Positions 63,189 through 64,000 of a DNA stretch of 64,000 nt are shown here, one piece after another. The stretch's first letter is position 1. Every line of letters starts with the position of its first letter. This DNA comes from an uncultured Tidjanibacter sp. (GTDB taxonomy: Bacteria > Bacteroidota > Bacteroidia > Bacteroidales > Rikenellaceae), in the NCBI GenBank assembly GCA_947852905.1, contig CANTVF010000004.1:212408-276407 (forward strand). Reading direction: 5' to 3'. The notes beneath the pieces are model-generated. The model did not search any database. It saw only the letters and a list, made by a program, of their open reading frames with translations, and was not told where the DNA came from. The translations under genes and the position numbers were made by a program.

Positions 63189-63485
63189 ATGAACGTACAG
63201 ATTCAAGCAGTAAAGTTCGATGCGGACAAGAAACTCATCGAATTCGTAGAGGCGAAGATAGCGAAACTGGAACGTTTCGTGGAACGTTGCACTGGAGCAG
63301 AGGTTACCATGAAATTGGACAAGGATAACGAAAGGGGAAACAAGGTAGCGATAATACGTCTGGAAGTCCCCGGAGACGACCTCGTCGCAGAATACCGCAG
63401 CAAGAGCTTCGAGGAATCTGTGGACGGCGCCATAGACGCCCTTAAGAAACAGATCGAGAAACACAAAGAACGTTTCAACAAATAA
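63189..63485 (+). CDS. hpf: Ribosome hibernation promoting factor / RaiA family
   Basis: MNVQIQAVKFDADKKLIEFVEAKIAKLERFVERCTGAEVTMKLDKDNERGNKVAIIRLEVPGDDLVAEYRSKSFEESVDGAIDALKKQIEKHKERF. Confidence 0.92.
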   Translation: MNVQIQAVKFDADKKLIEFVEAKIAKLERFVERCTGAEVTMKLDKDNERGNKVAIIRLEVPGDDLVAEYRSKSFEESVDGAIDALKKQIEKHKERFNK

Positions 63486-63545
63486 CGATACGCATATTTT
63501 ACTCCTCAAAGGGAGGAGACATAACGACGGCAGAACGCCATACCA

Positions 63546-63575
63546 ACGGCAGGTCTTTCAAACGGGACCTGCCGT
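63546..63575 (+). terminator. Terminator after hpf
   Basis: Arms ACGGCAGGTC/GACCTGCCGT followed by ATTTTTCG. Confidence 0.85.
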
Positions 63576-63641
63576 ATTTTTCGCATAAACGTTCACTCCC
63601 CCGACATGAGACACCGTAGATATTCCGACCAGTTGAAACGA

Positions 63642-64000
63642 AGCCGAGCGGTACGACAAAAGTAAACCAGAAAATCCGAAGCAAAATTCGACTCTCAAGA
63701 AACATCCGGACAAGCGGCTCGAAACAGCAATACGCATAGAGACAATCCTCAGAATGACACCGACGACACTCTGAACAACGGAAAACTGAGCCGAACGTTA
63801 CGACAAAAAGAAGCCAGAAAAATCCGGAGCAAAATTCGACTCTCAAGAAACATCCGGACAGCGGCTCGAAACAGCCAAACGCACAGAGACAATCCTCAGA
63901 ATGACACCGACGACACTCCGAACAACGGAAAACTGAGCCGAACGTTACGACAAAAAGAAGCCTAAAAATCCGAAGCAAAATCCGACTCTCAAGAAACATC
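63642..64000. repeat. 147-bp tandem repeat, at least 2.4 copies, continuing past window edge
   Basis: Unit starts at AGCCGAgCGgTACGAC 63642, AGCCGAACGTTACGAC 63789 and 63936; shared cores GCAAAATTCGACTCTCAAGAAACATCCGGAC and GACAATCCTCAGAATGACACCGACGACACT. Confidence 0.92.

Follow-up and report, generated by a model that had tools for sequence, protein, structure and literature searches.

What kind of element is the 147-bp tandem repeat that follows hpf and runs off the end of the DNA analysed here? The whole stretch of DNA under analysis, hereafter the window, is 64,000 nt long (G000:C4:212408-276407), and a single array was detected in it by TRF, at 63642-64000, with a period of 147, 2.4 copies, 92% matches and a score of 613. 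The unit starts at 63642, 63789 and 63936, which the initial annotation had read from the letters alone, were confirmed, and the units are as follows.

63642-63788, no strand assigned: unit 1 of the repeat, 147 bp, which has diverged furthest among the complete units (TRF and alignment)
63789-63935, no strand assigned: repeat unit 2, 147 bp (TRF and alignment)
63936-64000, no strand assigned: first 65 bp of unit 3, the last 55 bp of which are identical to C3:1-55; the remainder of the unit lies on contig C3

Upon alignment, units 1 and 2, each of 147 bp, were 92% identical and were separated by two offsetting indels, in line with the compensating indels described beforehand. The repeat array is real, and chance cannot account for it. 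Its units, longer than 10 bp, were arranged head to tail without spacers, as in a minisatellite or VNTR, and the array resumed on C3. A CRISPR array was considered and rejected, since it is the whole 147-bp unit that repeats, with no unique spacers in between.

The array does run off the window as had been reported, and the edge in question turned out to be the true end of contig C4 (276407 bases). The start of contig C3 was found to carry the 147-bp array too (G000:C3:1-278), and the last 55 bases of C4 matched the first 55 bases of C3 exactly, with no other overlap length fitting. This 55-mer occurs twice in C3, the second time at C3:146, and therefore the graph node loops; the overlap thus most probably represents a k = 55 graph node in a loop, such as a de Bruijn assembler leaves, the type of assembler being suggested by the overlap itself. 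Because no third contig end of the same assembly carried the 147-bp unit in the contig-end comparison, C4-C3 is the parsimonious link. When the two contigs were linked, the extension past the edge that the initial annotation had proposed for counting copies gave at least four units: two of 147 bp, one of 145 bp and a fourth that has decayed and ends at about C3:269. The exact period of 147 originally described accordingly holds for the two complete units in the window and fails for unit 3, which measures 145 bp past the contig junction. The pairwise identities were 95% between units 2 and 3, 92% between units 1 and 2, 88% between units 3 and 4, and 81% between units 1 and 4, which shows decay of the outer copies. 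The units resemble one another too closely to be resolved at the k-mer length used, and this is why the assembly broke inside the array; the breaking and distortion of assemblies by tandem repeats is well documented (PMC6868369).

The array is bordered on both sides by a gene and a hairpin.

63189-63485, plus strand: hpf, ribosome hibernation promoting factor / S30AE (Pfam PF02482 Ribosomal_S30AE, E 2e-19)
63546-63583, plus strand: intrinsic-terminator-like hairpin with a T run that ends hpf and precedes the array (12-pair stem followed by ATTTTT; fold z = -5.85)
within C3:605-662, minus strand: strong hairpin (z = -6.9)
C3:674-2044, minus strand: convergent alpha/beta-hydrolase gene, the gene across the junction

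An xerC-like gene lies upstream of hpf, and on the C3 side the array is followed by approximately 400 bp of non-repeat spacer. The spacer between hpf and the hydrolase gene thus spans at least 1.1 kb, and since terminator-like hairpins flank the array on each side, it is likely to lie outside both transcription units. The arrangement often found in Bacteroidales, in which tRNA or tuf genes come after hpf, did not apply here, as neither a tRNA nor tuf is located downstream and the neighbour across the junction is the alpha/beta hydrolase. A lipoprotein-like gene comes after hpf in the sister species G003 and G002; its homologue is located at C3:5376-5963 in the present genome, and in the two sister species the hydrolase is encoded about 28 kb away on the opposite side of hpf; no conserved hpf-array synteny was observed in these two genomes. 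These differences in the hpf neighbour and in the placement of the hydrolase put the array at a between-species rearrangement breakpoint.

The host, a gut bacterium, was assigned to the genus Tidjanibacter (Rikenellaceae) on the strength of the named relatives that hpf retrieved. The distribution of the unit was quite narrow. It was absent from 22 other Tidjanibacter genomes, and among 268 Rikenellaceae genomes it was found in its own genome only, apart from one 30-bp A-rich match in G083 that lies just upstream of an ORF and was dismissed as a chance match rather than a relative. Within its own genome, no further copy was detected at E<0.5, so that the genome-wide search for dispersed copies that had been suggested yielded a single locus split over the C4 and C3 contig ends. 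No occurrence was found in viral contigs with two exact patterns, and a description of this array was not found in the literature.

Taken together, these observations very probably identify the array as an ordinary, lineage-specific intergenic minisatellite, a probable VNTR, whose unit measures about 147 bp and which lies in the spacer between hpf and the convergent hydrolase gene; neither a regulatory nor a coding role has to be invoked. Among the options listed by the initial annotation, a VNTR or amplified intergenic element was therefore the right one: the array is non-coding, intergenic and tandem. In the proposed course of events, a spacer segment between hpf and the hydrolase gene would have been duplicated in tandem, and the copies would then have multiplied through unequal recombination with one another or through replication slippage; the inner units are nearly identical and the outer ones have diverged. 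We infer that the copy number is variable and that the array is without function. Bacterial intergenic minisatellites and VNTR loci of the MLVA or MIRU-VNTR type are alike in their head-to-tail non-coding spacer units, near-identical inner copies, decayed outer copies and assembly break. Most VNTR units are shorter than 147 bp. The present array differs from VNTR loci in its extremely T-poor strand, and allele variation between strains is known for VNTRs, whereas here one assembly represents the locus. Against the minisatellite reading, it is not obvious how a strand with 10.9% T and 42% A would result if typical spacer DNA had been duplicated neutrally.

Long-period arrays were surveyed in about 0.9 Mb of the same assembly, on two large contigs and at contig ends, and a 400-kb portion of G003 served as the comparison. 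Four further arrays with unrelated units were found.

C1:48553-48969: 105-bp array with 2.2 copies and, after it, three adjoining runs of (ATC)n, (CAG)n and (AGA)n, all within the spacer that separates two convergent genes
C2:17159-17706: 297-bp array, in or adjoining a spacer
C2:87304-87669: 159-bp array, in or adjoining a spacer, with one frame open across it, between larger called genes
C8:106791-106999 / C2:1-290: 155-bp array between murG and murC, within the stretch C8:106657-106999 plus C2:1-433, T 7%

Meanwhile, no array with a period of at least 40 was seen in the 400 kb of G003, a contrast that is suggestive only, since about 0.9 Mb of G000 was covered. Repeats of other kinds were also observed at contig ends: C6:1-560 is a CRISPR-like array at a contig start, with a 36-bp repeat (GTTGTGGTTTGATGTAGAAGCAAGATGAGAAACAAC) and spacers of about 30 bp, one of them seen twice; a related, oppositely oriented repeat is present at the end of C14; and the beginning of C1 (C1:1-231) lies within a repeat of 117 bp (39 codons) that has open frames and probably codes for a repeat protein.

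The murG-murC array resembles the hpf-hydrolase array in being intergenic, lineage-specific and A-rich/T-poor (A 42%, T 7% on the array strand), and in its assembly break with a 55-bp overlap; it differs in sequence, with weak similarity, and in lying between two co-directional genes. None of 159 sampled spacers of at least 150 bp, delimited by simple ORF-based gene calls, had a T content below 14.9%, and only about 0.009% of 359-bp windows were as skewed as the 147-bp array. In the shuffle tests, the local alignment score of the 155-bp unit was reached by 3 of 300 shuffles against unit 1 and by 150 of 300 against unit 2, and the global alignment score against the 147-bp unit by 2-3 of 200. 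We consider it unlikely that the two arrays constitute one lineage-specific class of T-poor, A-rich tandem repeats that has expanded into spacers of this Tidjanibacter species and in which selection, or the mechanism generating the repeats, would maintain the low T content. The T-poor strand common to the two arrays is the sole non-routine, unexplained part of the locus.

The strong strand bias, together with the similar bias of the array between murG and murC, would be consistent with each unit being an sRNA gene, a promoter or a protein-binding site and with the array being maintained for its dosage effect or because it acts as a sponge. The units, however, folded no better than dinucleotide shuffles on either strand (z -1.5 to +0.8), gave no Rfam match above the gathering threshold, and have no homologues for covariation. 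Two sub-threshold matches to lincRNA-p21 in Rfam were judged to be chance. Furthermore, the promoter scan revealed no sigma-70-like promoter in the array, and the Bacteroidetes-type TAnnTTTG motif matched once, in unit 1 only. As the unit is conserved in no relative, the DNA- or RNA-level conservation proposed by the initial annotation did not hold up, and neither a repeated sRNA nor a protein-binding array gained support; the similarity among units reflects only recent duplication and homogenisation, not constraint. An array of regulatory units is thus improbable.

The array could also be the body of a small, MITE-like mobile element carrying a minisatellite. The nearest case found described in Bacteroidales is BrickBuilt of Porphyromonas gingivalis, a MITE minisatellite with 23-nt units, a leader and a tail, and inverted-repeat ends, present in 19 genomic copies in ATCC 33277 (PMC4596501). 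Both are intergenic tandem repeats of Bacteroidales with a limited host range, and unlike BrickBuilt the present array has 147-bp units, occupies one locus and has no detected terminal inverted repeats. Mobility would fit the intergenic, lineage-specific position, the presence of the second T-poor array between murG and murC, genes that no more than 195 bp, and usually some 60 bp or less, separate in the 22 other Tidjanibacter genomes, and the partial similarity of the 147- and 155-bp units, which beat 297 of 300 shuffles in the one comparison. In opposition to this, the 147-bp unit occurs at a single locus instead of in multiple copies, and the search for bounding inverted repeats turned up nothing beyond the terminator stem and some weak, unrelated pairs. 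In addition, the flanks of the two arrays were not significantly alike (about 10% in the shuffle test), and a profile of the 147-bp unit failed to detect the murG-murC array. A mobile element is therefore very improbable.

The position of the array exactly at a contig end, with an overlap of one k-mer into the next contig, might point to an assembly artefact. The units, however, differ by 5-16 substitutions plus indels, which argues that they are distinct sequences and not one segment doubled by the assembler. Further contig ends of this assembly likewise share 55-bp overlaps, among them the end of C8 and the start of C2 inside the 155-bp array, and this junction joins murG (TIGR01133) to murC (TIGR01082), which are adjacent in 22 other Tidjanibacter genomes. 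By reuniting these neighbours, the C8/C2 junction indicated that the 55-bp junctions are real adjacencies, so that an artefactual origin of the whole array is extremely improbable and the uncertainty is limited to copy number.

Finally, the minus-strand frame spanning the array was assessed.

63499-63999, minus strand: spurious open frame across the array that does not represent a gene (broken by unit 3; 0 Pfam matches; composition)

This frame exists as annotated and is open through the in-window units since 147 = 3 x 49, but its apparent start ATG at 63999 is a mere in-unit ATG at the contig edge. At least one minus-strand frame was open in 55% of simulated 147-bp periodic arrays of the same composition (P = 0.55), because the low T content of the plus strand (10.9%) leaves little A, and thus few stop codons, on the minus strand. 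With the frame shifted by the 145-bp unit 3, indels between units that are not multiples of three, no Pfam match, and openness expected from composition, a Cys-rich hydrophobic repeat protein has next to no probability, in agreement with the judgement of the initial annotation that the repeat is not a protein.

The apparent oddity at the end of the window is thus an assembly break in a minisatellite, and its value is mainly as a caution and a tool. The 147-bp locus, together with that between murG and murC, might be used as a VNTR marker in typing Tidjanibacter strains, and the occurrence of two strongly T-poor arrays in one genome poses a small question as to how such arrays arise or persist.
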